From NCBI GenBank assembly GCA_037951105.1, contig JBAMJV010003033.1, forward strand, positions 248,001 to 312,000: a DNA stretch of 64,000 nucleotides. The letters run 5' to 3'. The notes under the pieces are model-generated. The model worked only from the letters and a program-made list of their open reading frames with translations, ran no database searches and had not been told where the DNA came from. Origin of the DNA: Echinarachnius parma. Lineage: Eukaryota > Echinodermata > Echinoidea > Clypeasteroida > Echinarachniidae. Both the position numbers and the translations under genes were made by a program. Position 1 is the stretch's first letter. Every line of letters starts with the position of its first letter. Positions 20,758 through 60,066 of this stretch are shown one piece after another.

Positions 20758-21557
20758 GACCCACTCACTGGCTTTTAAATTTCATGTTGCAAATGTACTT
20801 TTAGGTTTCCATGTAATTAGTTACATTTGTATTTTGTATGGTTTTACAAAATATATCAAGCACTATAAATGGATATGACTGGATTACCCGTCATAATATG
20901 ATCTATCAAACATGAATAAAGGAAGAAAGTGAAATAGTATACATATTTTTTGAAAATAGTGAAGTTCACATAATAGCCAAGAGAGAGTAATCTATCCAAA
21001 GGCAATCACAATGTATCATACTCTATAGAATAGGATATGTTTCTGGCATATGGCTTTGGTATGAATAGTTCTCATAATTCAGAGAGCCCCTGCTCACATA
21101 AATCGTAACACTTGGTTAGGTTTGCAACGCTTGCATGGCTGCCATAATGCACAAACTCATAAAATGAGCTGGGTATATTATTGGCACCGAAGCTTACTCT
21201 GATATAATACATGTACTTGGGTCGTACATTGTGGAGAGTAGAAAATAAGAGAAATGAGAATAATGCCAGGGTGCTTCAAACACCCCATAACTTGGGTCTA
21301 AAGAAGCTTAGCTTGAGTGATCAGTCATAAAAGTGAGATTCTATGTGCATTCACTGTGCCCATCAGTCTTTTTACACATATATTCAGCGGCCCATGAATA
21401 TTTGTATACTATGAATGTGGAATTTTGTTGCTTTAGGGAAATATCAGCAGACTGTGCAGTGAATATCTGTGGTGTCATGCTTCATGTATTTTGGTGTTGG
21501 AGTGTCTAACTAGTGCATTTTTGTAATAAAAAACGAGTTAATTTTCTTCTCTTACAG

Positions 21558-21713
21558 ACTAGTTGCAGATGAGGAAATATTGATTCCTTGCTAGGCCCTG
21601 CTAGTGGTTTTAGAAGTCCCTCAAAAGTCAGAGGGAAGGACTGAAACATTGATGTCTACATAATCAAGTTACCTGGATCAAAGTTGAAGTCATAATGGCA
21701 GAATTGGCTGGAC
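21558..21713 (+). CDS. SYT14/16-like exon 1 of the transmembrane isoform (coding from 21695)
   Basis: The strong acceptor 'ttcttctcttacag' before 21558 suggests an upstream non-coding exon. Coding starts at ATG 21695, gives 'MAELAG' plus one base, and ends at donor 'gac|gtaagt'. The phase-1 C joins TA at 25313 to give Leu before the transmembrane segment. Two tiny upstream ORFs (21569-21583 and 21652-21663) precede the start. Confidence 0.75.
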
Positions 21714-24700
21714 GTAAGTATTCCCCTTGAATGTCCAGGGCTGAAGAAAAGTAATAACATATTCAAACTTCTCTGTATTGCAGTTCCAGGGGGGTGTTGC
21801 ATAAAGAGCTGTGATTCATCGCAAAGTTGTAATTGATCGCAAGTCAGAAAACACGCACACTTGAGCCAATCAGATTTGCGCATTTAGGTGCATTTTCTGA
21901 CTTGCGATTAATCGCAACTTTGCGATTAATCACAACTATTTATGAAACACCCCCCAGGTAGCATTTTTGTTCACCGTTTCTAGGATAAAACCAGAAAATG
22001 AGAGATAATTAAAGAAAGTAATACATGTATTTTATTAGAGATGTAAGACTTAAAGAAAATAATTGCAAATGATAATTTGCAGATGATATGAGAAAGAAAG
22101 AGATGAAGAGAGAAAAGGTATAACTTTTGTGACATTTATTTTATGCAAATATTTTATATAAACATTGATCATTGATAAAATGACACAGTGGTTTTTTTTA
22201 CATTCATATTATAATATATTATACATATATAAGGGAGTCCAAATGTGTTTTATAGAACTCTCACAGAGTTATATGAAATATGACCCAGCACATAAAACAT
22301 CATTGAGCACATACATTTTAAGTCAGAATCTCAGATAAATGCCATTTTGACTTATTTAATATTTGAAAAAACAAATCTACTTAAACAAATAATGATACAT
22401 GTACGGTCATTTGTGACACTTTCAATATCTTCAATGGTATTTTCTCTTTATTAATTGGGTAAGAACTTCATTACTTAAAGAAAATATAGTGTATTTTTTA
22501 GCTAGATATTCTAGTAAATAGTGCAATAGTACTAGAAGTATCAGATATTATATCTATTAGTACTAAGAAACGCTTGTAAATTGTGATTTGATTGTTCTCT
22601 TTACAATGGCTTGAAATTATTACTTTGCAAAGATGGTGCAAAAGCTGCAGCTAAGAGTAAGTTCTAGCCAGAAACACGGCTTGACCTATGAAAATATGTG
22701 TTTGTGTTGTACACGTGTATGTGTCCCTTTTGTTTGGTTGAAGTTCCTGTGATATTTAGAAGCACTTGAAATTATGCACTTTGACTTTTACTCACTATTT
22801 GCTGTGTAATTTCTTTAGACATTGTGTGTTGATAAACACTCGGCGTAATAGATATTATGACTGATGTCATTGAATATGGTGCATTTCAGGAATTTGAAAT
22901 GAGTTTTAAAATAAATGACAAAAATGCTGAAAATTCTATCTAGGCTTGAATCGATGAGATTTTCTAGATTATGCTCTGGCGAAATGCAATCATTACATAC
23001 ATGTATTTCCAAAATATCCAATTACTAATTCAGATGTTATATTATTTGCATTTTCTATGTTCTAAAATACTAGAAATGAAAAGTTACTTTGTTTTGTAAA
23101 CTTTATTTTGCTAACTTTGTACAAATTGTAAAAAGTTTCACAAGTTAATAGTCAAGGGACTATGCATGATTTTCAATTATTCATCCTAACAGTTTCCAGT
23201 AGATAGGTGGGGATGAATAGGATACAAACATACCATTTTAGATTGAGCAATAAGTTAATTTGGACTTTACAAATTTATTTAAAAATTCAGCTAAATAATA
23301 TACAAATCTTCTTGTCAATTTTGTCCATTAAGTATGATTTAATGAGACTTTTCGAGTGTTATAGAATTTAAAATGTCTAGTACATAATGGTCCAAGGTGA
23401 CAAGTAGATATATGAGATAAGTGTTTTGTTTTTAGCTTTTATTCACAACAAACGAATAATAACATTTGAACGTACACCTGTGTGTGCTTGTTGTTTAAGT
23501 TCTATAAATGATAACATTACTTTGATTGTGACGTTGAGTAGTGCTACTAATACTGATAATTGTTTCACATCATTGCTTTATTTTCTGAAATATTGATATT
23601 AATTATTATTATCGTGATGATGAGTTTGTTAGTCGTGGTTTTTCAAAATGATACATTAGGGCTCAGAATTAGCACTGGCCCAGAAGGCCAGGACCAATCA
23701 ACATTATAGCTTAAATCAGAGATCAGGCCACTAAAGTTTCATTAGTGCAAAATTGTACATGCCCAAAAGGACAAACAATAACGTGATATACACCGTGTCC
23801 CAGAAAAAACGAAACCGGGTTTCATGGCAGAAATTTTATGTTATAATGAATAATTTCCTTGATGATATATATATGTCTGAAAAGCTATGTGTCTCTTCTT
23901 TTATTTGATATACAACTTATGGCACATAATTCACGCATGACTGAATTAGAACGATAGAAAGTGGTGTTACCAAAATTCAATTTGCGCGCAGAAATTGCAA
24001 GTTGGGTGATGTTTTGGGGAGAGTTTTAAGAGTAGTAAACGTACTTATTTTGAAAAAGGACAGACACCGCATGAAAATTCATAATTTTATCTTTTATATG
24101 ACACCTCATGATTAAAAAATAAATTATATATGCCAGAGAACGAATACAATGAAAACATGCTTGATTCCAGCCCAAATGAGTAACTTTCCTGATATAGCCT
24201 GTTTCCTGATCCCCATGTTTGTGTAAATTCACTCATGCATCAAAGTCCATTGTCAGCTGCTAGTCAGGAAAGCTGAGCGACTTCTTACTCAACTTTCACT
24301 CATTCGGGCAGAAATCAGGCATGTTTTCATTGTACTCGTTCTCTGGCATAAATCATTTATTTGTTTAGCATGAGGTGTCATGTAAAAGATAAAAATATGA
24401 ACTTTTATGTGGTATTTGTCCTTTTTAAAAATAAGTACGTTTACAACTCTTAAAACTCTCCCAAACTTCAAATTTATGCGTGCAAATTGAATATTGGTAA
24501 CACCACTTTCCATTGTTCTAATTCAGTCATGCTTGAAGTATGTGCCATAAGTTGCACATCAAATGAAAGAAGAGACACAGAACTTTCCAGTCATATATAT
24601 ATCATCAATTAAATTATTCATTATGACAGAAAATTTCTGCCATGAAACCCGGTTTCGTTTTTTCTGGGACACGGTGTATTCAGGCTACCATATTCAGGTT

Positions 24701-27700
24701 ACGGCCACAAAAATGTAAACAAACCTTGTTTTTACTTGTCCGTCTGGACCAGAAGGAAAAAAAGCATGACAAAAATTGCCCATTGAGAATGGAAGGACAA
24801 TAAAGTTAGTCAGTGGTTGTATTTTTGAGTTAATCTTGTTAAAAGTTTGGGTTCCTTGTAGAAAATGAATTTTATCCGTTAATATTCCCAAAATTAGAAA
24901 TACGATGTAAATTGGCATCATATAGAGAAGACTCCTATAGAATTCAAGATTGTATGCAACTCTGTATTGCTAAAAGAGACGTAAAGAATGTTAAGCGTGT
25001 TGATGCGTGGGGAATGCAATTTTGAACTAGGCTAGTTTGTGTGCTCTGCATTAGAAGCCAGTATACATGTATTATGCGCCATGCGCAGGGCGGTCGCAAG
25101 ATGGCACTGCACATATGATTTATTAAAACCCTTCTCACTCTCACCTGGGCCCTGTTGCAGAAAGTGATACAATCAATTGTAAGTTTTAAAAAAGTGTGCA
25201 TTTCAACCAATCAGATACGCGCATTTAGTCACACAATTGATTGTATCTCTTTCTGCAATAAGGCCAAGATGTTCAAACATTTTATTTTCCGCTTTAAATT
25301 TCCTTTTTTTAGTACCGCTAGCTGCCCTGATCTTCTTGTTTGTGATCATCGGCTTCCTGGGGTTCCTAGTCTTCCTCTTCATGTGCCTCAACAAGATGGC
25401 CTGCTTCGCCAACTGTGGAGGATGCCCCTGCATAGAGGATGATGATAAGAAGAAGAAGAAGCAGGATACTCAGGCTATCTTGGGTAAGTAGTTCATAAAC
25501 TGTTTCATAAATGTAGAAGCTTGAATTCTTAATTTAGCCTGGACACATTCTTCCAGGTCAATTTAGCTCGTTTAGCCCACTGTTTTATGGAAAGCCAAGT
25601 AAATTACACTTTAACATCAAAGGCTTCCTCTGTTTTTTCTTCACTTTTTCTAAATTTTTCTTTCTTTCTTTCACCTTGTTTTAACATCTGAGGGTTTGGG
25701 GTTTCCCCCAATGATGGGTTCATATAATACAGATAAAATGGCATGTAAACCTTAACAATCAACAATAATTGTCCTCTTTTGGCATACTTATAATAAACAC
25801 ACAAACAAAATTGAAATAAAAGGAAAATTAATTGCGTTAGGGAACTCAATCTACTTGGCAAATTTCTCACTTGTTCCTTGATAGGATTTATATGGAAGGA
25901 GTTCTTCTTTTGTCTCAGAGTTGAACAGAAATTGCAGTTGTCCGATTGAATCAGGGATTGGGCAACCAAATTAGACCATCTATGAAATTTTACTTGTTCA
26001 ATGTCAATTTTTACTTGTCATGGCCCGTATTTGAGCAAGTGCTAGTGTGAAGCCTTGACCATTACTCTTTGTTCTCTCTGTCTAGACGAAACGTTTGGAT
26101 ACCAGGAGGTGGAGTCGTCCTCGGACAGCGAGGATGAGACCATCCTGCGCTACCAGCAATCTCTGCTCCCTCCTGCAAGCAAACACCAGCCAATCACCAA
26201 GAAGCTAAAGAAGCCAACAGCCGTCAGGATCGAAGGTAAGCTACCTTATTTCTTCTCATATTGCACTCAAAGTTAACCTGTTCCCTACAAGATTTGACAA
26301 TCCCCATACGGACATAGGATTATTACAGGGACCAAGAGGTTCCCATGGGCAGTGGGTTAAATAAGAGTCGGTAAGTAGCCCAAGCTTTCCATCCAACCAG
26401 AATCTTTGTCAGAGGTAAAAAGACAAAAATGGATCAAAGGCGTTGTCCCATGATGAGACTGGGAGCTTACGACATCATAGACATGGTGTGACTGAGATTG
26501 CATGAGACTAATTTTTCTGCAACTATTCTCGTGCAAACATCCATAGTTTTGAACTGTGAAACTGCAGCCTTGCCCCTTACAAACAGTTTTTAATGGTGCT
26601 TAGGACATAGACCTCTTTACACAACACACATTTTTTCGTTGCAATGCTAGAGATCGGGAGTTGAATTGGAACCTAGCTGGAACAGCAATTTTGTCTTCTT
26701 GTGGGAGACCGTCTTAAGTCTTGATTTAGGTTACTCTCTGTCTGCTTCAAGCTGCAATTGCAATCAGTGTTCACTATTTGTCACCATTTACTGAAGAAAG
26801 ACGTTATGAGGAATGATGCGTTTTGCAAACTTTTAATGTTGCAATTTCTTCAGATGTGAGATTTTTGTTTTCTGTGTACAGCACATATCGAGGATTCTCA
26901 TTAATATTTTACCCATTTTGGTCTAAAATCTGGTTTCGAACACAAGGGTCCATAGGTGTACCAAGGGGGGGGGGGGGGGGGGGGGGGTGTTTGGGGTGTT
27001 TGGGGTGTTCAACACCCAGCTTTAGCAAAACAAATTGTACTGTTTTAGGTATTCAAACACATCCCAACTATGCCACTGAATGGATATTATAGGGTCTATT
27101 AAACATGTGTACAATACTAAATTGAAAAATTGGTCAAAAAGATGTTTGACTATCAGAACAAGTATCAACTTCACATTTCTCTCAATTTTCTCCACTTGTG
27201 CGATCCATTTCTGGTACTGTATTACAGCATAATCTTGCATGTTGTTCATTTCTATACATTCCACAAAATATATCCATTTGATTCAGCCTCAGAGATATAT
27301 ATGTCAATCATTCCTTTTGCTTCCAAACTGACTCAATGTATACATTGTATAATTCACTGATATCTGGAAAATATGGACTACATAATTATCATCTTTATAT
27401 TGGTGCAGAAAAGCATACACTGGAAAAGTATGTATAAATAAATGGCACACATTCAGACTCAACGGGCTTAGGAGGCCATAATAATTTTATTTCATGTACA
27501 TGGCCATTATTATTATTTCAGAATATAAAAAGTACTGAAATTAGAGATGGCATTGTATTGACTATATAGTTTTTAAAATGCATCCAAAAGCCATTCAGTT
27601 TTCTAACTTTGTCATCAGATTTAAAAAGGAACTTTTTGATAAATTATTAGGAATAAGTATTCTTAAACTGCCTGCTGCCACTATTAAATTTTGCGATATT

Positions 27701-30700
27701 AAAGTTTCTCTAAAAAAACAGTGGCAATAATATTAGAAAATACTTTTAATATGCAATCAATTAGGTATGAATTATAAGAGAATGTTTTGTATTATGGTGA
27801 TTGATTTATTTTTAAAATATTAGAAATAGCGTTCAGTTTATCATTTATTTCAAAGAAATTAAGTGCTCATAAACACATTATTCAGGTGCAAGAATTGTGC
27901 ATGATCTTTTATTTCATACACAGTTCATTTTATGCATGATTGCAAAGCCAGCATTATAAATTAATTTTCATATCAACATGGGTTGTATATAATTGGGGAT
28001 GTTGAGAATAATATCACATTCAGTGCTCAATTCTCCCTAAAAGACACATCTACAAACTTGGAGACATCCATACAGAGAGAGGCAAAGTGATATGTGCAAA
28101 CATATGAATAGATGTGTACCATAACTACACAATACCATAACTACACGAATAAGAGAGCTGTTCTTGTGGAAACTCGGAACACACATTGCAAAGATGTACA
28201 TATCTGAGGTTTATTATGATCGTTACTAGTCATACACATGTATATTATGTCTTTTTAAATGACTTGGTAATTTAAACTGATTGGGGAAATTATCAAGCTT
28301 TGAACAATTGTAATGTTTTCTCTGAAGCCAGTGTTCTTTTGTTTTTCTTTAATTTCCTTTAAATGCTCTTCTCTTAGCAAAAACCTGTCAATTTTCAATA
28401 AAATGTGTACTTACTATTCTGCAAGCATAGACACATTATAAACTGATATGTAATTCTCCCATCTTATTAATACTTTCGTACTTTTTGTAAAACGATGACA
28501 CAATTTGCAAGCATTAATTAAGGGTAGCTCTGCAATTGGACTTCACTATTAATTTGTAATACTTGCTATTTATATTTAAGCATTGATTTGAATATTATCT
28601 TTTGTACAAATGCATTCCAGGTGAAAAGTTATTTATTCATTTACAGTACATACAATTGAAAATGATATTTACTATTTTATTTGATGGATTGAACTTTATG
28701 GGATTTCAAGGACTGTTTCCATTTGTTAAATATTTATATGCATTAAGTCTGCATTTTATGCATTTCTTTAATACTCATACCCTACCTATAGCTACATGTA
28801 TATTATGAAATAACATCAAGAGATGGTGATACAGTCACCACTTTGTTTAATTCTTTCTGTTTTATGTCATTGGCATGTGCTTTTGGAGACAAAATACAGC
28901 AAAGCATGAGCAACTTGCAAAGTTAATTAATGGCTTATATGATATCTTTTTTTAACTTCAATAAAAGAACTGGTATGTCGGGTAATTGGGTTTATCAAAA
29001 AAACTGCCAAGCATTTATACAGTGAAACCTGTCTATAAAGCCCATGCAAGGGTCTTGATATTAAGGGGGTGATCTTTAGAGACAGTTTCATTTACATTTC
29101 CTTGGAAGGCAAGAAGGTGGTCTTTACATACAGGTGGTCACAAGAGCAGACTTGACTCTACTTATCAGTTGTTAACATTTTCACAGTACTTTCTTGTTTC
29201 TACTTTCTACTTTCTGTTGAGGTATACATTATATAATCTTCCTTTTTTATTTTGTTATTATTAATTTTTATTATTTATTTGTTTTGTTGGATATATACAA
29301 CAAATACTATCTTGTTCTCATTTTTGGTAGATAAAATATAACAAATTGAAAACAAAGTCCATTTTTATTATGTGTTAATTTGTTTATACATGTAACTGTG
29401 TGTGCGTTTGTGTGTGGCATTGGCTTTTGATGGACCCAAAGTTAATGTGACAAGTATAAGATTACTTCTCAAACTTGAATTTATAACTATATCACGTTTT
29501 GAGAATATTGTCATGAAATTGTTACCTTTTTTCGCTTGTCTACAGAAACATTGTCATGACAGATATATACCTCTTTTTTTATTTCTGTGAATTATAATGT
29601 ATGTTCGCGAAAATGAACCCCTTTTGGGGCCAAATTGTGACTGATCATGCATACGCACTGACAAAATGAAGTGCCACCACTTGGTATTCAAAACCTTACC
29701 TCTCGTATAAATGTAGTTAACTGCAAATGGTTCCTCATTCACACAAGAAACGTTCTCATGAATTGATTTAAATGCTTCATGTTGGGATGTTAAGAACGAG
29801 GAGAAGATGGACGCCTGTTTGTTCACGATGTCCTCGTCATAGGAGCGCCTATGCCCCCAGTGCCCAAGCTCAAGTTACAGCACTATGAGGGGGAGAATGA
29901 GGACCTGCTGGGCATGGATGCTGATAGTATTGAGCTGAAAGGTTTGTGTGTGTGTGCGTGCGTGCGTGTGCGTGTGTTTGTTTTTATCTCTAACATGAAA
30001 CATTGCACATCAGTTCCACCTTAGCTGCACAGTGCAATCTGGTCTTTTTCATTAATCAATTTATTCAATTTACGATATGATAATAACAAAATGGTTGTAA
30101 AGGTATAAAGGAGAGGCTGACATTGACAACGATGAAGTTGATGTTGGTATCGAGCTGAAAGTTTTGTGTATGTGTGTGAGTTTGTTATCTCTAACATGAC
30201 CAATTGCACATCAGTTTTAATCTAGATAGTTCCTTTATGTCAAAATCCTTCATAATCATTAAAAAATCCTTCATAATGTTAAGATGAGAATGCTGGAATG
30301 GGTTGTATTGTAATGCAATGAAAATGGCGATGATATCGGCAAGGGTGACAGTTACACTGTTATAAAACTGGAAGGTTTGTGCGTGTGTGTGTGTGTGTGT
30401 TAGTTCTCTCTAACATCACAGTGTCCATATACACTCCTTGGAACGTTCTATAACCTACCCAATTATATCTATAGCTAACTCAACTACAATAAAAAACAAA
30501 GTTCCTTCCTCAACCTATACATATATTTTAAACTGTTAATAATTGAATAATACAGCTAAGAGGCTGATGAGTGTGTTGCAGTGATATTTACATGATGAGA
30601 TACATTATGTCAGAGTCATGGATGAAAATGATATATCAAACTGTTCGGCTTGTGAGTGTGATTTTTAGAAGTATTTAATACCTCTAATTTGATGCACCTA

Positions 30701-33700: not shown

Positions 33701-36700
33701 GTTCGCAAATTATATACTCAATTGCGTTGCAACTAGAATATCTCTCCCTTTCTTCTTTAGTCTGTACAGTAACAAACAATTCTGTAAAATACTGCCATTG
33801 ATTTTTTAATACCTCATATCCACCCTTCCTAGGCATTGCTATTTTTTAAAAAGAAAGCCTTACTTTTCATCACTAAATTGTAATTAAGTGCAATTGTCAC
33901 AGAATTGTAGCAACAAGAGTCGCACACCAATGGTAATGTAACTCCAAAACTCAATCATTTATTATCATACTATCTGTCAAATATTGTATAAAAATGTACC
34001 AAATAAGCAAAGGGATAGAAAATAAACTGAAAATCATTTTGAATAGTGTGTCACTCCAATTTTAAGTTAGTTTTTACACTGCAATATAGAAACGATGAGA
34101 GCTTCTGATATATAATTGGTATCACCATCTTTGTGATGAGTTGTCATTAAAACAATGAAATATTTTAAAGTAAAAGTGCAATTCAGGCAGTTTTCATATA
34201 TAATTGAAGAAGGCATTTTACTTTCTACCGAGAGTAAGTGATATTTCAAATTTACTCACATACTCACAGTTATAGTTATGTAGTGCATATGTTGTATACA
34301 CAGTATGAAAAACCCTTTCTCTGCATTAGTATTGATTTTCCAAAGAATACTTCATTGATGGCCAATTGTTGCAAACGTTCGCGCTGTGGTTGAAAATCCA
34401 ATAGTAAGAAAGGAATAGATTCACTCTCCCAAACCGTGTTGATATACTGTAGTGCGATGTTTTTCATTGACAAGTATATTGTTTTGCCTATGTGCTTCTA
34501 CCAAATGGCAAATTTTTTGTTTGTTTTGTTGTGAATTTCATCAGTGTTTGCCGTTTGCGGCATTATCTACCACTGGAATTGTGGTGATGAGTGCTGACTC
34601 GAGAAAGACAACAATGTGTTGTGAATAATGTTTCTGTTGGATGTCCATGTGCCCAGAGGATGATTTGTTATGAATACTGACAGATGGACAGGTGTAGAGA
34701 AGGTACCAGATGAAGGCTGTTGGAGAAGCTAGAGCAATTGGGATTGCCACAGTTTGCAATTCATGATTCCATGTTGTAAATCCAATAAAGATTGCCACAC
34801 ATTACCTTTTCTCATTCCTAGTGTAAAGAGACCAGTTAGTGGAACTCTTCAAAATGGCTTTTGACGAGTTTACTCAAATGATTGGGAACTTTTTTAGTTC
34901 CATTCGTCCCATGAAGGATGAAACCGTCTCAGATCAAGCAGAGAAAGAGCGCATGCTCCACTCCGACTCGGAGCGGTTAGGTGCCGAGGACAGTTTCGAT
35001 AGCACCGATAATCCGCACGAGACAGATACGTTCCTTGGGGATAGGGGTAAAGTTCCTAGGCTAGGAGATGACTATGATTACAGTGATCCTGGTGGTGAGC
35101 TGCAAAAAGCCGATGAGGAGGAGGAGAACGACTTAGAGACGATACAGGAAGGGCAGGTCCTTTCCGTGCCCCCTTCCCCCGGCCCCTATGCAACGGACAG
35201 TGACCATTTTATGAGCGAGGGGACGTCGACGTCGGACTTGAGCGACATCTCCAGCTCTAAGAGCTTGCCGGTCAATAGTAGACTTTGGGTCGGTAGTGAC
35301 CAGAGACAACAACTCTTGCCCAGGAGCGGGTCCGAGAACCTGAGTGTGGCTACTAGAGACAGGAACTACAAGAAGAAAATCATGCTCTCGCAACGATACT
35401 CACCACGAGGATACTATGGTAGGAATTCTTTGTCGTTTTTTGTTGCCCACAAGTTGGGCAAGTAAATTAATGGCCTCTGAAATTTTAGAGGCCCAAAATC
35501 AAAATGTATGTAAGGTGGTCCCTCAATAAATAAAAACATAACAATTGCTTTCTTCAGTAGATAGAGACTTAGTATTGTATATTAAAAACTTCCTGACCTA
35601 ATTTATGGTGATTTTATCTAACTTTAGTGTAAAATAGTAATATTTGTATTTTAGAAGAGAAAGACAAGTCATTTCTTTCTAGTTATCATTACTTAGAAAT
35701 GCAAATTCACAGTAATAGAAGCACACCAGACTGAGTAAAAAGAAAGGGGTCCGCTCGCTAGTCATAAGGACTGCTATTCATAAGGACCGCTAGTCATAAG
35801 GACCGCTAGTCATAAGGACCACTAATCATAAGGACTGCTATTCATAAGGACCGCTATTCATAATCCAAGAAGAGGGTCGCTATTCATAATATGAGAAGAG
35901 GGTCGCTAATCATAATACAAAATCGGGGTCTTTATTCATAGGGATCCCTATTCATAATACGAGAAGAGGGTAGCTATTCATAATACGAGAATAGGACCGC
36001 TACTCATAAAACGAAATGGGGGTCGCTAGTCATAATACGAGAAGAGGGTCGCTAGTCATAATATGGAATGAGGGTCGCTATTCATAATACGAGAAGAGGG
36101 TCGCTACTCATAATACGGAATGAGGGTCGCTAGTCATAATACGAGAAGAGGACCGCTACTCATAATACGGATTGAGGGCCGCTACTCATAATACGGAATG
36201 AGGGTCGCTATTCATAATACGAGAAGAGGGTCGCTACTCATAATACGGAATGACGGTCGCTAGTCATAATACAATATGTTATGACTAGCAACCCTCATTC
36301 CATATTATGAGTAGCGATCCTGTTCTCATATTATGACTAGCGACCCTCATTCCGTATTATGAGTAGCGGTCCTCTTCTCGTATTATGACTAGCGACCCTC
36401 TTCTCACATTATGACTAGCGACCCTCAATCCGTATTATGAGTAGCGGTCCTCTACTCGTATTATGACTAGCGACCCTCTTCTCGTATTATGACTAGCGCC
36501 CCTCTTCTCCTATTATGACTAGCGACCCTCATTCCATATTATGCATAGCGACCCTCTTTTCGTATTATGAATAGCAGTCCTCATTCCGTATTATGAGTAG
36601 CGGTCCTCTTCTCGTATTATGACTAGCGACCCTCTTCTCACATTATGACTAGCGACCCTCAATCCGTATTATGAGTAGCGGTCCTCTACTCGTATTATGA

Positions 36701-39700: not shown

Positions 39701-42700
39701 ACTTGTCTGTGATTTCCAATGTGACCTTGCCCATTAGGAAACTACATATAAAGAGATCCGGCCGTCCTCTGGCTCTGGGTACGTATCCAAATGCTCAAGA
39801 TTATATTTTTGTGTTGTTTTATATATTTGTTTTTATTTCCACAAATAAAATATGGGATGGGCCTTTCAGCAGAAGCTGAATATTTCAAAACAAGGCGGTC
39901 TGAAGTCTGATATACTTACGTTTATATACACGGTATATATATATATAAGCGAGAAGTAAACTAATACATACAGCTTCGGTTTCTTCCAATATATAAATAA
40001 TTGCAAGGAGTAATCATAAATGATTGAGAAGGAAGAATAATAGTAGGCGTAGCTTAGTAAGCAATGTTCCTCCTTTTAATCCTCCAAATGAAAAAAGGCA
40101 CTGGTCGAAAAATTGGTCTCCGCCAGGAATCGAACGCCGATGCCTTAACCCGACTACTAGGCCACGGGGACCGTGTGATTGAAGACAGATCCAGTTCAGG
40201 TCATTGGCAAGCCAATCTCTCGGCCCTTTGTGCTCAGGTATTCATGGGGAAGGAGTTACGAACAATGCAAGCCGCCTTTACTTCAGCTGGATCACAATAG
40301 AGTGATTCAAGTATTAGTTAGAACATATATATATAAGCGAGAAGTAAACTAATACATACAGCTTCGGTTTCTTCCAATATATAAATAATTGCAAGGAGGA
40401 ATCATAAATGATTGAGAAGGAAGAATAATAGTAGGCGTAGCTTAGTAAGCAATGTTCCTCCTTTTAATCCTCAAAAAAAGGCACTGGTCGAAAAATTGGT
40501 CTAAACGGTATATATATACGCATCTCATGCTCTTTATTTGTAACCTGCATAACAGTACTTCAACGTGGATATTAAATTGAATAAAAACCGCTCTGATTTA
40601 AACTTTAAGGCCGGCTTGAGATTTTCAAGATCAGCGTTGGAGCGTTAGAAAATGTGTGAAATGTGTGAGTCTCGTGTTCAATGTGTGAGAGTTGGCAACC
40701 CTGCATTCACGGAGGTTAATAAATGGACTTTGAGCAAAATGTTCACATCATTCCCCTGCATTTTGCTGCGCACCTGAAGCAGCCGCATGTCAATGGCTTT
40801 CCCATCCAAAACAGGGATAATCGATCACGTTTGGTTATACAGCACATTCATTTGTTTCAGGAAGATATATAAAGCTAAGGCTTCTTTTTGAAGGGTCTAC
40901 AAGAAAGTCGATTTGGAATGAAATGTGCAAATTCTTGAAGAAATTTTACAATAGATGTATTTTAGTATGAGTTTATGCAGCTGCTCGCATAATTTCCACT
41001 TTTTGTTAGATGCTTCTAATGTTGGTTATTTGTGGTGCAACAATTAGTGTTAAGTAATAGGACACAGTGGCATACTACCTACCGGTATCACGTCATATCA
41101 GTTCTAAGTCACTCAAAAACTAATGGCCAATAAGTAGGCTATAGTTCAAAAGAGTTTTCTATACAAACAAAGAGGACTATATGAAAATGTGCCTTGCCAA
41201 GCGTTACATGCGGTTGGCTATTTTTTCTTTATACTGTGAACCAGGTGACGTACTAAAAACAAACAGTTATTTTGTGATTGTCACAGCCTAGCAAAACTCT
41301 TGCCTGTATGTTTTTGTTTTGTTTAAAGTCTAACCTTCAGTTCCAGAAGAGAGACTGTGAAATCAACTGCAAACCAAAAGTGCATGGTCAGTGCTGCTGT
41401 GTCATGTTCTGTTCATATTGTGCATTTTTTTGCTTCTAGCAGTACGCGCTTGAAAAACTAGAGCCGTCTATTTGTTTTATCCTTCAATATTAAATGCCTG
41501 ACACCAACCCACATGTGTATAGTCGTTTTATAGCGTTATAAACTTGGCTACTACCAGTATTAGCAAGGAGAGCTAAAATGGTTCTAAAATAAATGCTGGT
41601 ACAGATACTATGACCTAACTTGAAACAAGTTATTTCTGAAGATCAGCGTAATTGTGTGTTTGACCCAGCACTTTTCTAAAAGGGATCTCTTGCATGTGGA
41701 TTGAACCAAATATAGTCTGTACGTTTCCATTTCCTCGTTATTATACAGCAAATCAAGTCACTCTAAACTTTTCATTTTGGAATCACTTTTGAAGACAGAA
41801 AGCTGTGTCATACAAGGGGCCAGCACACTGTAGGACATCGACATATCAAGTAAAAAGTCCCTTAAAAGTCAGAGTTTACAAGGCCGCCGCATGACTTTGG
41901 AATTTCAGCAACCATTGCACTAGAAATGGCATATATACGTGTGAGGTGAAGACGGCTAATTTGGAATAATCTTGCACTTGATTAAAAGAGCTAACCGATT
42001 GGATCCAAGACCGACTTTGTATTCCAGTTAATGTTGCAATATACTGAGACTCGAAATGGGGTTGATTCTTCCGTGTTGCTTCGGAGATTCCGATGATAAC
42101 AGCGACGATGAGAGCAATCGTCTCTTCCACATGGACAACAAACTGAGGAAGCAGAAGAGGAAAAAGAAGCGTGAACACGATCAGAGATTGACGAAGAACT
42201 CTGCAACTGCAGACATCAACGTTCTGCCCCCAAATACGGATTGGACAGGAGTGAACTCTAAAAACAGCAATGGCAGTGCAAAGCCTAAGAAACTAAAGAA
42301 GAAGTTGAGGTTTAAGGACCAGTTTGAAAACTCAACCTCTACTATGTCTTCATCAGGAGTTTATTCCAGAGAGAATCCCATTTCCATGAATGATGTACTT
42401 CATACAAATGGTAATATACCTTTAATGGTTTGAGATTTGATATCAGTGAAAAAAATACTTGGGGGTTTCAGGGCAATTTTCCCCTGAAAATCATAAAAGC
42501 TCTATGTAAAACACATTATTTAGTGCACCTTGAAGGCTAGCAAGCTTAAAAACAACCCCTAAAAAAGTCGTTTAAATTTTTGACCCGTTTAAAATATTAT
42601 AATCTAATGTTTAGATATGAGAATGATGAAATTCATTCACTGTTTCTAAAACAAGTATTTTACATGCAGGGTATTGGAATAATATGATACCCACAACATG

Positions 42701-45700: not shown

Positions 45701-48700
45701 ATATTAGTAAAGTTATATTCTTTCACATGGTTGGTAATAAGAGCGGACATTTCATTTTTTGTGAGTGGGGTGTTTCCCACTACTGTCATTTCTGATCCAT
45801 GAATATAGCCATTGTCCATGGTAGTGAATGAATGGCCAATGTGCTTCTGGTTTTAGATAAGCTCCAAATTTATTGTGAAATAGGGACTTGTGCAGTGATG
45901 CATTGATTGAATGAATGAATGCTGTGGTCTTAAATTGCTCAGCTTGTTTATACAAAAGGAAAAGGAAATCTCTACACAGTAGGCCTAGTGCATTTTTGTT
46001 AACAAAACGTCAATGCAACTATATTTGTACTAAAGTTTATCCCATGTTATTTAACTGCATATCTTGATACCAGCAAGGTCCCTCAAGCCCAAGGCAATGA
46101 TTATATCTATACCAGTATAATATGCAACACAACAAAAGCGTCATGGAAGGAATAATTTGGAACCTTGGCTGTTGATAATGTACGTTCTACTGCAAGTACA
46201 TGACTGAATGGCAATTGCCATCATAGATTTGAATGAGGAAGGGATGTTGTGTTTTCACTATTAACTTTATATCGTGTTATGATATTTCTTCAATGTGAGC
46301 AAGATCTCTGTGGAAACTATTTGAACTTGTTTGTATCCTTGGGAACATCCAGATTGATGTGCTAATTAACAGTTGAATACTTAAGAGATTCTTGCATTAA
46401 ACAACATAAGCATGCCTTTGGAATCTTGTGTCTTCATCTTCCTGATTGATCCGATGGTTTAAATTAGCACCCAGCATTACACATGACTTCTGTTGAGAGA
46501 AAGTAACTTCTGGCATATTAAGACTGAAAAACAATCATTTCTAAGTCATGGTGTATCTTTGTTTGTGTTGCCGTGGAGATCCGGGAGATGGCGTCGACAA
46601 CGAGAGAAATCCTCTCCGCGATACAGTCATCACATTAAGGAGACAGTCGACTCAGCTATCTCCAAAAGAGGACCGTGTGCCACTTATGGGTGCATTATGC
46701 CATGATGGTAAATCACATATAGGCAAACCTGTGTATAATGACCACTGTAGACAGGTGCAATGAAATTATTTTCTCTACATTAAATGGGAGCAGTTTTGGT
46801 GGCCACTATAGACAGGTTGGCTGCTATAGACAGGTGGCTGCGAACTTGCTAAGACAGGTTTGACTGCACAAGTTGTTTGAAAGTGTGATCATATAAACAT
46901 GTTTATGTTATAAATGTATTGAACTACATTATTCATTAACCCTCGAAGTGCAAAATACTTTGCAAGATTCCACTAGACTCATTTTGGTACTACTTGACGT
47001 ATACACTTACAGGCATTCTCTACTAAGACGTGCCCACGACTTGGCATGCATGACTAAAAGAACCGATGCTCTATACAATTCGTATAGCACATCAGTTCTT
47101 TTAGTCATGCATGCCAATTAGTGGGCACGCATTGGTAGAGAATGCCAACAAACATGTATAGCTTTGATAATACCCCCCCCCCCCCCCCCCCCTCCACTTC
47201 ATCTGCAATTAAATACTGTATATGAAGCTTGGTAAGAAATAAGAAGTTCAGTTTCAAGCTATACAATTCATTCCACATACCTATTGTGTGCATGAAGGAG
47301 CAAGTGATTAGATCTGATTCTATTGTGCCGTGAGTCAACCATGGCACCGATCGAGTGGTAAACTCTAACCTCTACCTTTAGAGCTGTTTTTCTGAGATCT
47401 ATATATTACATTGCAAAGTGATGTATACATTATATATATTTCATACTTAGGGAGACTTTCATTATTTATTCTACCAAAATATATAGGCTTCCCCTATGTT
47501 CAGAAGTAACTAACATCCCAAATAGTTTAATTGGAGGGTGACCATATGGAAGAATGTAAACAATATAGGGTTTTATGCGCTTGTCAGAGGAATACGCAAG
47601 GACAAGTCAGAATGCCAAACAAATATTCTAGAAGTATAAGATCATAACTATAAGCTTATACATGTATTTAGGGTAATATGCTTATTGTTTCAAGGATTAG
47701 TAAGGAATGGATTTGTTGTGGTAATAATAATAATCATAATGATGGTGATGGTGATGGTGATGGTAATGAAACTGATAAAACATATTAAGCTCCATCCATA
47801 AACTAAAGATATACTTTGGCTGGGTGTTTGAAAAGTTTATAAAAATGTATATATCCGTCAAACATGTCTGTAAAGACAAAGGAGACAGAGTAATGAGGGG
47901 GGGGGGTCTTTATATGCAGGTGGTCTAAAGTGACATGTTCATTAATTGACATACCACATCTTTAAAGGGATCATTTAAGATTAATGGGGTTTTTTAAACG
48001 GGTGGTGCTAGCTTAGGTTTGGCTGTATTTGACTTTCAGATATTATATAATCAAAGATGATGTTAGGGAAACATTGTTTATGTTAGGGAATATACCACTA
48101 TGGAATGTTTTTCTACTTTTGTTTTAAGTAATATATTGTGTATTTTCTTTTTTTTAAACATCTAGGTATCCTAATCAGAAAGAACTGTTATGCTTTTCTT
48201 TTTCTAGATTTAAAATTATGGTCCTTTACAAGCATTGAATGGAAAAAAATAATGATATTTGTTTTAAAACTTTTAAAAGTTTTAAAAGTTATGGCTATGC
48301 TTGATTATGAGGGTGCTTGTATAACTTGTGATTAGTAACTAGCTTATTCAGGGACAATAGTAAACTAGTATATTAATGGGCTAGTTTTCAAGCTTTTTTT
48401 CATTTATAATGGCATTCTGAATTGCACTGAATGTGGAATTACGTGGGCTCTTTTGGCATTTCTGAGGCCCAAGTCACCCCAAGCCCCCATGCAGTGATTT
48501 CGCTGAGCTTATCTGCTTTTAAGTGCATTGAATATGTCCAGTAACAAATATAAAGGCCTCCATTTTGGCAGCCTTCTTACTAAAATGGACACCTCTTTTC
48601 CAAAACAGGCTTTGCTTCTCAAAACCTGGATCTTTATAATGAGTCCACTGGTCCATATCAAGCTGAATAGTCTCTCTTGGATCTCAGTGGTTTTGATTTG

Positions 48701-51700
48701 GTACTTCGTGCAACTTTTTTGTTGTGCCAAGCTTTATTGTACTGTTTGGTGTTGAAGCTTCAGTAATCGCATCCATTGTAGTATACATGTACATGCTATA
48801 GCTGCCAGCACTTGTAAAGAGAAACAATTTATACATGCATGCACTGCAGTCTGCTAGTGGCTTTTACTTGTACTGGTACTTTTTTACGTAATGGATGATA
48901 TACTAATATCATAAAGACAATGTAGGTGGTGCGATAAGATACTAAATTACATATTAAATGCGAGAGACTTTTCTTTGACGCTAGCTAGTATACCACTGCA
49001 ACTCCAAGTTTTGGATGCATAAGTCAGTCTCCAACGTGGTTATTGTGCCAGTCGTTGGCAGAATTCACTGCTTACGTCTTAGAGCTAGGAGGGATGCAAA
49101 TGTTGGACTTTGGCCTTGTGCATTCATCGAACATGACAATCACAAACCACCGTTATTGAGTTATTGTTTTCATAATTCATCATAGTCTTATTTTTGGAAT
49201 TTCAATCATTCTGTTTCTTTTACTGACTTTGTCATCACTGAGTTAATACTAAGAACTGGAGTCAAAATGTGTAGTCTTCTGTGTCTCAAGCTCTGTCCAG
49301 GGTTCTCGACTATCCTTCCTTTTGTACCTCGAGCAAGTGGTAAAGGAGGACCAAAGCCAGAGCAGTATCACGAAGATGACAATTGCAAATTGGAGATCGA
49401 AGTCTTGGAACATTCGGAATATTGCTACGTGCACAAGATTGAACATGAACATGAAGTCGCGGTTTCGGAGGGAAAAGACCATGACTGTCATAGTGTGGTG
49501 GGCAATGGATCGGTAGCGCACGAAGAGGAAAACCATGTTGCAGAGGAATGTGGCAAGTGGCATATTTATCTAAGTTTTAGTCCTTCTTCGTATGTTACCC
49601 CAGCTGGATCAACCTGAGTTTCTCCTGGAATAGTCCAGGATTTCGTTATGTTCATGATTATTAACTGTTGAATATCTGTTGATAACAAATTTGTTCCTTA
49701 TTTAACCCAGGATGTATTAATACATGTACAGTCAAACCTGTTTTAGTGGTCGATCACCTGTCTATAGCACCCAATTGACTACAGTGGCCACCTCAAGTCA
49801 CTTCTTCTATGTGAAAGTGATCTCCTGTATAGCAAAAAAACAATATTTTTGAACCTGTCTATAAAAAAGAGGTCGCCTGTCTACAGTGGCCACTTTTGTG
49901 TGTTTCCATACGTGCGGGTTACTTGATCTACACAGATTTGACAGTATCACCTCTTGACTTATTATCTCTGATTGATTGATTGAAGGTTAAATTGTATATT
50001 CCATAATTCAATTAAATGGTTACAAACTCTTACAATTCTTAATTCTTACATTCTTAAATCCACGGTTGTAAATATCCATAATGTAGGTCCATTTACCCGT
50101 ACCATCCTTCCTCAGCAAGGCATTATTTTTTAAACCACTCAATATGGTATTTTGTGTACCATGTATTATCTCTATGGGAAATGCAACATTGTATAGGCAA
50201 GGAGTTAATTGATGAGTATTAGCTTGCCTGGGAGTAACAGGTACATGTACATAATACTGCATAACAATTGATATTGAGTGTATATTATTGTATACAAAGG
50301 TGTTCCTGTTTCGTCATCATTCACGCTTGAAGGATAATTCTGAATCACTGTCTACAATTTGTACAAAGTACAAAATATGCAAGTGACATATTGACAAAAG
50401 CACAAACATTGTATTTCTATTTACATACATATTGATAAGCGCATTTGTGTTCCAAGAATTAATGCTACTCAGCTCAACCTATTATTATTAGGTCCCTTTA
50501 TGAATGACATGTAGGCAATGCAAATAACCAGATCATCATGATAACTTAGAACATTTGTTTGTAGCATATACATACATATATATATATATGCCACATGCAT
50601 ACAAAGTATACAACAATCAAAAGTTTTAACAGGTTTTAAATATGAGATGTTTTAAAAGTATTTTTCATTGTGGCAAATTGTGTACATATTACTAGCCTAG
50701 ATTTTTGGAAGCTACAAAAGTAAATTGACAATTGAGATACATGTATACAATCAAACTTGTTTATGATATTCAGAAAACTATACTACCTTAGTTCCATGCA
50801 TATAGGGCAAGGGCTAAGCAGAGAGGTAGGACCCACCTCTGGTCTAAGTAAGCAACATACATGTTTTGTTGCCACAAACATGATTATATATTACAACCTA
50901 CTAGCTAACCCTAGTTGGCAACTAAAAGGATCTGGTTTTACACTTAGTCATATCATCTTACATAATAGAGTGCAACTAAGCTAGTGTTTTTGTGAATATT
51001 GGACCTGCATGGTCTTTATGAGCAGGTGGTCTTTATAATATACAGGTTTATTTTAAAAAGGCAGACTGCCTTGAAGGGACGCAATATAATTGTCATTATT
51101 CGTAACATAACATCTGTGGTAGTCACTGTGATCACAATAAGGAGCTTTGAGTTCACACATGGTAACAGCTAGAAGAGAACATTCACTACACAGTGGAATT
51201 TGCTCAGTTTTGAAGAGAAACAGCAATGATATATCAACTAGAATGAAAGGAGGAGAATATTACTCGGTACCCATTTGATCGGACATTCTTGATGTTATGT
51301 AATACTACCATTCAAGATGATTTTATGTTGTTATAACATGCATTCTCCATGCACTCCAGCAAGAGTAATTTAGAGGGACCTGTGCTGAATGGGCTATTGA
51401 AACTCCCAGTCTCATCCCCTCTGTGATTATGCATGCATTGTGTGGCAATAATATGTGACCATCTCTAGCAAAATCAGACCCTTGTCTGCATGCAACTCCT
51501 TTTTTGGCAGAAATCAGCTTCTAACGTGAAAAATATGTATTAATTTTCACATTTTCAGCAAAATGTTTTGTCTATTATTACAGTAAATATTGCCAATTTT
51601 CATGATGGTGGTATCAAATGAAAGCTAAAGATTATGAAAATGATAAAAATATAAGTTTCCCATTCTTGCCGATAAGCACCTGATTTTGCCAGAGGCAGTC

Positions 51701-54700
51701 ATCCCACTGTCTAATATCCTTTCATCAGTTCTGCAGTAGAAGTCTCCATGTATTATCCATGTCAAGTGAAGCAGAGATGATCCCCTCAGGAATGTGGGAT
51801 TTCCACTTTTTGCTCCCAAATGGTGGACATTTGTATACAAGGGTATACAAAAGCAATTATGGGGATTGGCTTGGATTATGTAAAGATGTTGAACAAAACA
51901 AACGATGGAAAATAAGCACTGAATAAATACAAGTACTCATCTGTTGAGAAAGAGAAGGCAACTTCTTCGTTTTTTCTTTTTTTTTTTACTTTGGAGATAA
52001 TCATACTGTCTGGGACTCTAGGAGCCTTGTAGAAACCATATATGTGGCTCTCTTTTAGTTTTGATAAGAGCTCTACAAGTTGGTGTGCATATAACTCAAT
52101 TTAGTCAAATTTTGACTCAATGCCCTTTTCACCCTCAACTAATGCAATGGCCTGGGAATTATTTGAGTGAAAAGGGAAGATAAGAGAGTTCTGATAAACA
52201 CTCTTGGATATGCCATACTGGCTGATGGCTATAGCCTATTACTGACCAAGTTAGCTATCGAGTTGGTTCACGTTATACACCTAGTCCTACACATGTACAT
52301 CATATGGTAAATCGCAATTATGTAAATTTCACAAAGTTCTGTCTCATTAATTGTTAACTTAGAAGGCAATGTTTACTATTTACTATTGATATACATACCA
52401 AAAAAGTCAAAATGTGAGGGGAAAAGTGATGCTACATTAAGAATAAAATAGTTTTGTGTGTGTGACAAATCCTGTATCTTTTAAATACATTTTACACACA
52501 TCATATTGTAACACATTTTTTTGGGCTCATTTATATTATGATTTGGCATTGAAAAAGCACTGTAATGAGCAGATCACTCAAGTGTGAAGGACATTGTTCA
52601 TTATCAAAAACAGGGCATATTACTTTTATACCCTGGGGGAAATCATTTCTAAATGTCAGTGCAGACTATTCTTAAAACCTGATACATCAGCATTGTTAGA
52701 AATCGATCTTCATCACCTTGGCATTCCACAGCATAAACGCACAGCTATTAATAGAAATGAAATTATTGGTGTTGCTATAGGGAGCCACACTGAGATAGTT
52801 TTTACCACCGGTTTTGCGTTGTTTTTTATTTATCAGGTATAAAGGAAAGGCGATTTTGAGCAAGGGAAGGGAAGCAGTACTTGGCATTGAGTTTTTTTCT
52901 GCAAGTCTTGCTTTTTTTTCAAAAAGAAGGAGATGGAAGTAAGGATTTTTCAAGAGTCACACATATTAACGTTTTGTTGTTGTTTTTGCTTTGTTTCACC
53001 AGGTATACGGACAGAAGATGTGGAGCAAGGGGAAGGGGGAAGTGGTACCTCGTCTCACACAGACCACGGTGCGTACGAGGCCCATGACGAAGATGCTGTG
53101 CATTCAGAACTGGTGGACGACATGCCCCTCGTCGGATCAGAGGATGAAGGGAACATCATGGAGGAGGTAAACATCAATGTTATTAATCTGTTCTCTCCTA
53201 GTTATTTTTAAAACCTATACAATAAATTACATAGATTGACTGGTTCCAATGAGCAATTCGTTAATGAATAATGAAACATTTCTATGGATTAAAGTCATTC
53301 ATTAATATTAAAAACTTCTCTGGCTTGAAAACAGTCTTTATGAAAATTCAGCCACTTAGGCATAACGTTAAAATGTGGAATGTATATAATTAACAAATAC
53401 AAATAAATGAACTCATGACGGCTGGCTCAAGTTGGCCAAAATGCGAGTGCATAATTTCTCCCCAAAAGTGGCATTCAGATTTTTCCCTACACTACAAGTT
53501 TTTTTGCAAACAAAATGTTTTGGGCTTTCCTTTACGTGAATAGTTTGCATGAATTATAAAGAATTATAAATTGACCGACAAAACTTAATTTTGCTCTTTA
53601 ACAGACTCTCCCACCCGATGCCAGCCCATCGATAGGAGACCTTGAGCTTGCCTTCCAGTACAATGGAGAGGCACGCCGCATGAACGTCACCGTCATCAAG
53701 TGCCACGGCCTGCCAATCAAGTCCAACGGTGGCGCCTCCAGCTGGCGTCTGCGCCTCCTCCTCCTTCCCAGCAAGCGCCAACGAGCCAAGACCCACATCC
53801 GCGAGTCACAGGACCCTCTCTTCAAGGAGCTGTTCCGCTTCTCGCGCATCTTCCCCCACGAGGTGGTGAGCACGGCGCTGCGCTGCCGGCTCTACACCGC
53901 CGAGAGGCTGCGCAAGGAGAGGCTGGTCGGGGAGAGTGTTATTAAGTTCTCGTCGCTCAACATCGCCAACAAGCAGATCATCAAGGTCAAGATCACTTCT
54001 CGCAGTGAGACAGTGAGTGGAATTATTCTTTTTCTATGTCAGTGATACCAAATAATTTAACAATCTGATCCTGCACCTATGACTTTGCCATTTCCTGTAA
54101 AAATTACGTATTGAAACGTTAAATGTTTACTTCTGAATGGAAAGTAGTAATGGTACTTAAAGGGCAATGCAACTCAAGAATAGAGTTTATCCTACTTGAT
54201 ATATCGTAATATGCCTTTTTATTATATATAACATAACTCCGACTCAGATTTCTGCTTTGGGAGAAATATGTGAAAACTCTATCGGGTTTACCACTATTCA
54301 TGCGAACACTGGAGGCCGCCATTATTAGGTGTGTGCGGACTTATGGTCAGTGATATGCACTTATGCATTTCAATAGCTTCTATTGAAACCATTGTCTGAA
54401 TACTTGTATATGCTTTGACGAGTCTGTAAATCAGTGAAAAGCTTTTTGTTCGGCCCGTAGCACACTCGTCATAGTTTGCAAAGCATGTCGGGCAATTACA
54501 AGAACATGGCTGCTCCCATCACCTTTTGCCGCCGTAATAATTAGTAAAATGTGGGTATGTTCACGTAAGGATTTCATGGGATCCAGGAGGCCAAAATTGC
54601 CAAGTTATGTATCAAATAATATGCCTGTTCACCCTCTAAACCATAATAATAGCCGAAAGCCATAGTTTCATTGCCCTTTAATATCATTGATTTATAGAAA

Positions 54701-59750: not shown

Positions 59751-60066
59751 CATCCGTTCTCCATGGGCTATAGCTAGAGTAGAGATGAGGATATTGGGCA
59801 CTGGAGTGCGATGAGGGCATCAAGAGGGCACTAAGTCTACTGCTGGCATGCCCTCATGTCTTAACCACAACCAATTAGACTCGCTTGGCTACTTTAAAAG
59901 ACCTTTGCAAGCCCCCTCGAGTCGTTACTGCACAATATGCAGTCCCCTGACTATACTTACAAAAGACTTTATCCCCCACTTGAGTAATTCTTCACCTGGA
60001 ATTAGACTACATTGTTCTCCATTGGCCTTAGCAACATTAGTGATAAGGGCATCGGGCATTGACAAC
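59751..60066 (+). pseudogene. Decayed copies of the terminal coding exon in the 3' flank
   Basis: 59751-59870 retains 'ccgttctccatgggct', 'gatattgggcactggag', 'catcaagagggcac' and 'ctggcatgccctc'. 59907-59960 retains 'ccctcgagtcgttactgcac'. 60012-60066 retains 'tgttctccattggcctta' and 'gcatcgggcattg'. All are riddled with indels. Confidence 0.75.

Follow-up and report, generated by a model that had tools for sequence, protein, structure and literature searches.

The locus described here raises the question of whether one synaptotagmin gene can place the same C2A-C2B core behind several different membrane anchors. It lies in a 64,000-nucleotide stretch of Echinarachnius parma DNA (contig JBAMJV010003033.1, positions 248,001 to 312,000 of the forward strand), which is referred to below as the window and whose first nucleotide is position 1. 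Judged by its sequence, the shared body appears to be a SYT14/16-type synaptotagmin (C2A-C2B), encoded on the plus strand by a first exon common to all modules (53003..53166, beginning with GT in phase 1), a C2A exon (53605..54012), an exon for the linker and the start of C2B that ends in phase 1 (57017..57209), a C2B exon (58054..58169) and a last exon whose coding part (59476..59673) holds the end of C2B (CRWHALLES) and the stop codon. Two tandem C2 domains occupy the C-terminal end (PF00168 in Pfam, two stretches, E 6.4e-28), and both were matched by Syt7, Syt1 and Syt3 in a PDB sequence search. An approximate human SYT14 sequence, used as query, aligns at 46% identity (E 2.6e-104), and its N-terminus aligns with upstream module A (E 1.4e-9). 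Nine of the ten calcium-binding Asp residues of C2A-C2B are seen directly to be replaced, which bears out the original prediction of a calcium-independent body. The phase-1 intron between 57209 and 58054 interrupts the codon for Asp in AP-D-SYVK, at what appears by eye from the alignment to be the start of strand 3. As expected, a scan of the body against a collection of bacterial and archaeal contigs yielded 69 pattern matches and no relatives.

Because the core is without nearly all calcium ligands, its location should hinge largely on the N-terminus, for which six modules (A to F) were considered on the plus strand upstream of 53003. Module A comprises four exons with phase-1 boundaries: the coding part of exon 1 (21695..21713, MAELAG, phase-1 end), exon 2 with a transmembrane span and a 10-residue collar (25313..25483), exon 3 with an 11-residue acidic motif (26086..26235), and exon 4 (29843..29941), which has a phase-1 end and a weak GTTTGT donor. 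The five single-exon modules are B (34854..35418, 188 aa), C (39412..39778, 122 aa), D (42056..42410, MGLILPCC, 118 aa), E (46548..46707, MVYLCLCC, 53 aa) and F (49267..49552). As had been predicted, all six modules are present with G as the last-codon base at these ends, and joining each to 53003 leaves a frame that is open to the common stop in every case. The start ATG has a purine at -3 in 6/6 modules, and in 6/6 its frame contains a stop codon 6 to 186 nt before it. This anatomy and the open frames are seen directly; splicing of the modules to 53003 is what we infer. No module matched a Pfam family above the cut-off. An internal-exon finder, trained on this gene's seven internal exons, recovered both ends of all seven as well as the 5' end of the final coding exon.

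Donor sites were scored with approximate splice-site matrices. The exon 4 donor of module A reaches 4.1 bits, compared with 6.7 to 11.2 bits in the gene's seven other donors. Stronger phase-1 donors occur within modules B (35094) and C (39445), so the ends named for these two modules represent a choice. Phase-0 donors are also present in modules E and F, and module C has both phase-0 and phase-2 donors at 3 bits. The proposed end of module F at 49552 is not supported as it stands: it requires a GC donor (GTG|GCAAGT), a point passed over in the first reading. A shorter end at 49339 would use a GT donor that is in phase with 49552 and also follows a G. The best donor of module F (49497) is out of phase, and the exon finder favours another frame in this region (49301-49497). 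The phase matching that had been emphasized earlier is therefore only partly upheld: the G and the phase are found at all six ends, but the match is partly a product of the reader's selection. Since each open reading frame offers several donors among which a reader may select, phase matching is weak on its own and was mostly dropped as evidence.

Codon usage was likewise not adopted as main evidence. Modules B and C outscore every one of 81 null open reading frames, and D, E and F are each matched or exceeded by 6 of the 81. For each of the five single-exon modules a higher score is obtained in at least one other frame or on the reverse strand, indicating that the score mostly tracks base composition.

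A chance test bears on modules C to F as a set. The plus strand of 30001-53002 was scanned for open reading frames of at least 50 codons that begin with ATG, carry an N-terminal Cys cluster (at least two Cys) and reach a phase-1 donor, with 21001-30000 and 53003-54100 left out of both the main scan and the controls. Four matches were obtained, and these are exactly modules C, D, E and F. The same scan (50 codons, two Cys) gave none on the minus strand of 30001-53002 and none on either strand of 30.9 kb elsewhere, and 40 shuffled controls gave a mean of 0.05 and a maximum of 1. Lowering the length to 20 codons returned C, D, E and F again, with one match on one control strand (shuffles: mean 0.35, maximum 2). 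When the Cys demand was removed, six matches were found, namely B, C to F and one start nested within C, versus 2, 1 and 3 in the controls (0.78 on average in the shuffles, maximum 4); at 100 codons there were three (B, C and D) versus none (shuffle mean 0.03). The donor threshold of 3.5 bits in the main scan was chosen in the knowledge that it lies below the scores of D (3.7) and F (3.9). If only GT donors are admitted, with any last exon base allowed and a minimum of 50 codons, F is lost at 3.5 bits, and both D and F are lost at 5 bits. As a set, modules C to F exceed chance, a direct observation, and F is the least certain module and the one with the least support. A second scan, of both strands of the whole window at 50 codons, found no other modules. 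Alternative starts probably number five or six.

The N-termini differ in the type of anchor that they suggest. Module A has a single transmembrane span, whose hydropathy averages 3.1 over 19 residues, and the N-terminal helix of module B has an amphipathic moment of 0.65 that was reached by none of 5000 shuffles of its 14-residue window; these values agree with the transmembrane span and amphipathic helix of the original prediction. All four remaining modules (C, D, E and F) begin with Cys clusters. Only C fits the PROSITE PS00008 myristoylation pattern (checked by eye), and it is predicted to be of a myristoyl plus palmitoyl type, while D and E are predicted to be palmitoylated. Myristoylation had also been proposed for module D, which is not supported: a Pro occupies the fifth pattern position, where PS00008 calls for S, T, A, G, C or N.

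Modules D and E appear to be duplicates that keep register from the start codon onward. Their protein similarity has a p value of 0.0005, the lowest that 2000 shuffles allow, and their DNA similarity, which is directly observed, begins exactly at both ATGs (z 11.7, 60 mononucleotide shuffles). In tblastn the pair reaches E values of only 0.002 to 0.013. Values near 0.01 are unreliable in these searches, because module F matches a stop-broken stretch (9391-9471) at E 0.008; tblastn of the modules over the window revealed no further module. The D/E dN/dS ratio is 0.6 to 1.2, varying with the length taken, and thus purifying selection is not demonstrated. Besides D/E, only two of the 21 pairs among seven module regions exceed z 2.5 at the DNA level, namely A3/B (z 5.5, intronic and outside the modules) and A3/D (z 3.3, across the acidic motif).

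The acidic motif is common to modules A, C and D, and B shares it less stably. With 300 shuffles, p values are 0.003 and 0.007 for the block in A, B, C and D, 0.013 and 0.023 for A, C and D, and 0.06 to 0.10 for A, B and C alone. A first pass over A to E (twelve tests of six sets, 100 shuffles) had given 0.01 to 0.07. Module E was dropped as a member on recheck, since it enters only through D; the p values are 0.07 to 0.16 when E takes the place of D (sets A, C, E and A, B, C, E).

We consider it probable that the locus as a whole is a SYT14/16-type gene whose 5' coding modules form an array and exclude one another. Every module would contribute its own ATG and a phase-1 end to be spliced to the common phase-1 exon at 53003, and the anchor would follow from the module chosen. 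In A it would be a transmembrane span, in B an amphipathic helix and in C myristate together with palmitate, whereas D, E and probably F would rely on palmitate attached to a Cys cluster. A related acidic stretch with hydrophobic residues at its end would follow the anchor in A, C and D, and less clearly in B, and the array would have expanded at least once through exon duplication (D and E). The observation is probably real, with corrections: the modules, their anchor-like N-termini and the shared body of the proposed anchor switching stand, and the myristoylation of D and the stated end of F are not supported. More tentatively, and with somewhat less than even confidence, we suggest a growing cassette array of first exons (integral, amphipathic, myristoyl-palmitoyl and palmitoyl, several with the acidic motif) in which the choice of start exon sets the membrane address of the core and duplication adds new members.

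A more modest reading, which we regard as unlikely, is that only the transmembrane module and one to three modules lacking such a span (B, C and perhaps D) are expressed, with F and perhaps E being chance open reading frames or decaying copies. The overlap of D, E and F with null codon scores, the want of a good in-phase GT donor near the end of F, several decayed partial exon copies in the locus, a D/E dN/dS near 1, and the exclusion of E from the acidic motif once D is omitted would all be explained in this way. However, the scan recovers exactly C to F with empty controls at 50 codons, the D/E similarity is in register from the ATG, and both E and F have a purine at -3, which favours the fuller array. 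That array could be read out through the separate promoters first proposed or through splicing of the modules to an untranslated leader exon upstream, or to a few of them, the latter being a possibility that we find somewhat doubtful and that concerns the mechanism of choice, being compatible with the anchor array itself. A 12.2-bit acceptor lies 137 nt ahead of the ATG in module A exon 1, before 21558, so a leader exon probably precedes this exon, and acceptors are also found upstream of B (8.1 bits, 32 nt) and C (6.8 bits, 4 nt). Yet among 3466 AG sites, 68 score at least 8 bits and 195 at least 6, which makes the B and C acceptors unremarkable; within 250 nt, no acceptor above 5 bits precedes D or E, and F has only one (5.3). 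It is highly improbable that modules B to F are instead first exons of separate nested genes, as they might seem to be from their failure to match any Pfam family and from a weak internal-exon candidate between D and E (44412-44566). The frame of this candidate cannot be entered from a phase-1 donor, and the modules agree in strand and phase and have the acidic block in common with A. No better internal exon lies between the modules and 53003 among the top 14 of the plus strand, and the nested-gene idea gained no supporting exon from the finder's top 14 of each strand.

Within the synaptotagmin family, Syt17 (the B/K protein) uses palmitoyl-type membrane targeting, and palmitoylation of Syt7 has reportedly been the subject of a paper. 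Neither is known to combine several alternative anchor types with a single core. The claim that only the transmembrane form corresponds to the vertebrate arrangement was too strong, given that human SYT14 variants without the transmembrane span are described, as are such N-terminal transcript variants of Syt16 in S. purpuratus, C. savignyi and C. intestinalis (Craxton 2010, PMC2823689). Invertebrate Syt16, which falls in the vertebrate Syt14/Syt16 group, resembles the present gene in body type and in these variants, but the main text of that report, as far as consulted, gives no module count and no lipid-anchor motifs; its alignment supplement may include some of the modules (PMC2823689). Our literature search found no paper on lipid-anchor modules of Syt14/16, and covered sources other than that supplement, so the modules may be published there. 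Another described system, as far as its account was consulted, likewise has alternative N-terminal coding exons with and without a transmembrane span, but only two modules and no named lipid-anchor type.

A close parallel in design is offered by the KChIP genes (KCNIP1-4), in which alternative promoters and optional exons are described as giving a shared core cytoplasmic, myristoylated, palmitoylated or transmembrane N-termini (PMC3973911). Several anchor classes on one core would be common to both, the motifs being present here and lipidation predicted. KChIPs have a core unrelated to C2A-C2B, being EF-hand calcium sensors that serve as subunits of Kv4 channels, and their classes are spread over four genes (PMC3973911). 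The present classes would share one 38-kb locus. The design principle is already known, and the richness of the anchor set is unusual. In the part of a further source consulted, SYT1 transgenes without the transmembrane span, or with a myristoylation motif instead, did not support fast synchronous release, so the type of anchor matters for SYT1; according to the same review, knowledge of SYT14 is slight apart from a reported link to human ataxia (PMC8164606). SYT14/16 proteins do not have the customary calcium ligands, and what they do is poorly understood. Should a single gene maintain five or six different membrane anchors for a core of this kind, the site at which the C2 pair is tethered is probably the regulated variable.

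The + strand of the window carries a gene for a C2A-C2B protein, whose shared body of 359 residues is encoded by five common exons (53003-53166, 53605-54012, 57017-57209, 58054-58169 and 59476-59673, the last including the stop codon). Two C2 stretches were detected in this body (Pfam, E 6.4e-28), and a sequence search against solved structures ranks Syt7, Syt1 and Syt3 as its top relatives, among 51 distinct sequences with E <=0.001. Within C2B, the intron between 57209 and 58054 interrupts the Asp codon of AP-D-SYVK in phase 1, a point placed by eye at the start of strand 3. Alignment to Syt1 reveals that calcium-binding Asp is replaced at 9 of 10 positions, with only the second of C2B retained, which bears out the original prediction of a calcium-independent body. 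When compared with a human SYT14 sequence, the body exhibits 46% identity (E 2.6e-104) and the transmembrane module A aligns across its span, collar and SESEDE stretch (E 1.4e-9). We therefore provisionally call the gene SYT14/16-type, a subfamily name that depends on this one human sequence.

Six phase-matched alternative N-terminal modules, A to F (ends 29941, 35418, 39778, 42410, 46707 and 49552), had been proposed for this body. Each joins exon 53003 in frame and would yield a protein of 412 to 547 residues that is open to the common stop. Module A comprises four exons (A1 to A4) with boundaries in phase 1, and modules B to F are single exons, each with its own ATG (34854, 39412, 42056, 46548 and 49267). 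At each of the six module ATGs, position -3 is a purine and an in-frame stop precedes the start by 6 to 186 nt. Donor scores are 6.6 (B), 6.4 (C), 3.6 (D), 5.6 (E) and 4.1 (A4), compared with 6.7 to 11.2 for the seven donors elsewhere in the gene. The anatomy of the locus is confirmed with corrections: all joined frames are open, but the end of F is ambiguous and stronger phase-1 donors lie within B (35094, 9.4) and C (39445, 7.9). The F donor scores 3.9 as a GC donor, and the highest-scoring donor of F, 49497, is out of phase. Module F may end instead at 49339, a GT donor (5.1, phase 1 after G) that gives a 24-residue module and a 383-residue protein likewise open to the common stop. Use of B as a cassette inserted through the acceptor at 34822 was rejected, because entry from an upstream phase-1 module meets a stop at the second codon. 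Between B and C, units of 16 and 26 nt are tandemly repeated (35756-37030) in a 1.3-kb inverted satellite, in which the 26-nt unit flips to its reverse complement near 36275 (by eye, consensus units). A perfect 21-nt tandem repeat (39356-39402, 2.2 copies) is located shortly 5' of the C ATG.

The phase match by itself is weak evidence, because each longer ORF has several donors. Stronger evidence comes from a mechanical scan for ORFs of 50 codons or more whose ATG has a purine at -3, with two or more Cys among the first 12 residues and a phase-1 donor of at least 3.5 bits after G. With this cut-off, chosen when the modules were already known, 30001-53002 yields four matches, exactly C, D, E and F. 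No matches were found on the other strand of this region or on both strands of 30.9 kb from the rest of the window, and 40 dinucleotide shuffles gave a mean of 0.05 and a maximum of one. Lowering the length limit to 20 codons recovers these four modules again, along with one match on a control strand (shuffle mean 0.35). Without the Cys demand, the region gives six matches, namely B to F plus a start nested within C, and the control strands give two, one and three (shuffle mean 0.78). If only GT donors are allowed, F is lost at 3.5 bits and both D and F at 5. Across the whole window, nested starts included, 8 of 161 ATG starts of at least 50 codons have at least 2 Cys in the first 12 residues, and C to F account for half of these (4/8). 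Codon usage places B and C above all 81 null ORFs and gives no support to D, E and F, whose scores are equalled or exceeded by 6 of 81. In B to F alike, another frame or strand outscores the module frame.

Modules D and E appear to be copies. An ungapped alignment of their proteins spans 37 residues and scores 56, where shuffles average 20 (p 0.0005, the lowest value that the test allows). They are the sole clear pair among 15 tested as whole and N-terminal parts; weak N-terminal matches were seen for C/D (p 0.03) and B/F (p 0.01). The DNA similarity (z 11.7 versus 60 shuffles; runner-up among 21 region pairs, z 5.5) starts exactly at both ATGs, and both starts are therefore supported. Counting against this kinship, tblastn gives the pair E values of 0.002 to 0.013, and in the same search F matched a stop-broken stretch at E 0.008. 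Over 23, 34 and 43 codons, dN between D and E is 0.46, 0.49 and 0.59, and dS is 0.37, 0.62 and 0.96, respectively, so purifying selection is not seen; common residues use the same codon at 12 of 14 positions. In a block search, related acidic stretches turned up in A, C and D (p 0.023 at width 12 and 0.013 at width 16, 300 shuffles). Adding B strengthens this result (p 0.003 and 0.007), with the position of B varying from run to run, and A, B and C alone give p 0.10 and 0.06. Module E (VDNERNPLR) enters the block via D alone: when D is left out, sets that include E reach p 0.07 to 0.16.

Decayed partial exon copies occur at 30139-30176, 30352-30389, 52844-52878, 56860-56932, 57424-57486, 59756-59855 and 60014-60061. 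They are 68-92% identical over 35-100 nt to their sources, which are the end of A4 together with the TG-rich start of its intron, exon 53003, the C2B start and the last exon; three were also found by protein search (E 4e-9, 2e-6 and 1e-4). Copies of the C2B start flank their exon on either side, and the last exon is copied twice downstream of the stop. The locus appears prone to repeated duplication of short exon fragments, in keeping with the D/E duplication. Also 3' of the stop codon is a 55-nt tandem repeat (61614-61889, 4.9 copies). In the intron 3' of D, a minus-strand tRNA-Ala (agc) was called at 42788-42862; it is possibly a tRNA-derived repeat.

The N-termini point to several anchor types. 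The transmembrane span of A is clear and averages 3.1 (Kyte-Doolittle) over 19 residues. A Met at 25396 inside A would yield a Cys-cluster N-terminus if used as a start. Module B begins with a strongly amphipathic helix, whose moment of 0.65 was reached by 0 of 5000 shuffles of that 14-residue window (8, 19 and 50 of 5000 for the other three windows tried). Module C is a candidate for myristoyl plus palmitoyl anchoring, as it has a Cys cluster and, judged by eye, fits the myristoylation pattern. Module D has Gly2 but carries Pro where that pattern wants a small residue; D thus looks palmitoyl-type only. Cys clusters make E and F putative palmitoyl anchors, and F has a fairly hydrophobic N-terminus as well (hydropathy 1.63 across 19 residues).

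Separate promoters had been proposed to choose the module; the flanking splice signals bear on how that choice may be made. A 12.2-bit acceptor lies 137 nt upstream of the A1 ATG, so an untranslated leader probably precedes A1. Acceptors upstream of B and C (8.1 and 6.8 bits) are not striking, because among the 3466 AG sites of the + strand 68 score at least 8 bits and 195 at least 6. Within 250 nt upstream, no acceptor above 5 bits was found for D or E, and F has one of 5.3. Leader-driven and self-started modules are likely mixed in this gene. A simple finder of internal exons, trained on the gene's own exons plus OPA3, B and C, recovers both ends of all 7 internal exons of the gene and the start of its last coding exon. 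Its best 14 candidates on the + strand include just three others at 30-53 kb: C; 44412-44566, which is weak and closed to entry from phase 1; and 49301-49497, which lies over F in a different frame and is evidence against F. This list of internal exons makes separate genes nested in the locus improbable. A choice of anchor among putative modules is the likely mechanism.

Syt16 transcripts with differing N-termini and no transmembrane domain are described from S. purpuratus and two Ciona species (PMC2823689), as are human SYT14 forms without the transmembrane domain; alternative N-termini of this gene are therefore already known in kind. The closest working analogue is the KChIPs (PMC3973911), in which alternative promoters join cytoplasmic, myristoylated, palmitoylated or transmembrane N-termini to a common core; here, such anchors are predicted from sequence. 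The new part would be the anchor breadth in a single synaptotagmin locus and its growth by exon duplication.

Elsewhere in the window, the minus strand carries an OPA3 homologue at 13499-14747, split into two coding pieces (E 2.5e-24 and 4.8e-11 to Pfam PF07047). Ser/Arg-rich exon candidates on the + strand (2171-2333 and 4794-4902) perhaps belong to one upstream gene, and a minus-strand candidate at 2145-2330 has a higher score.
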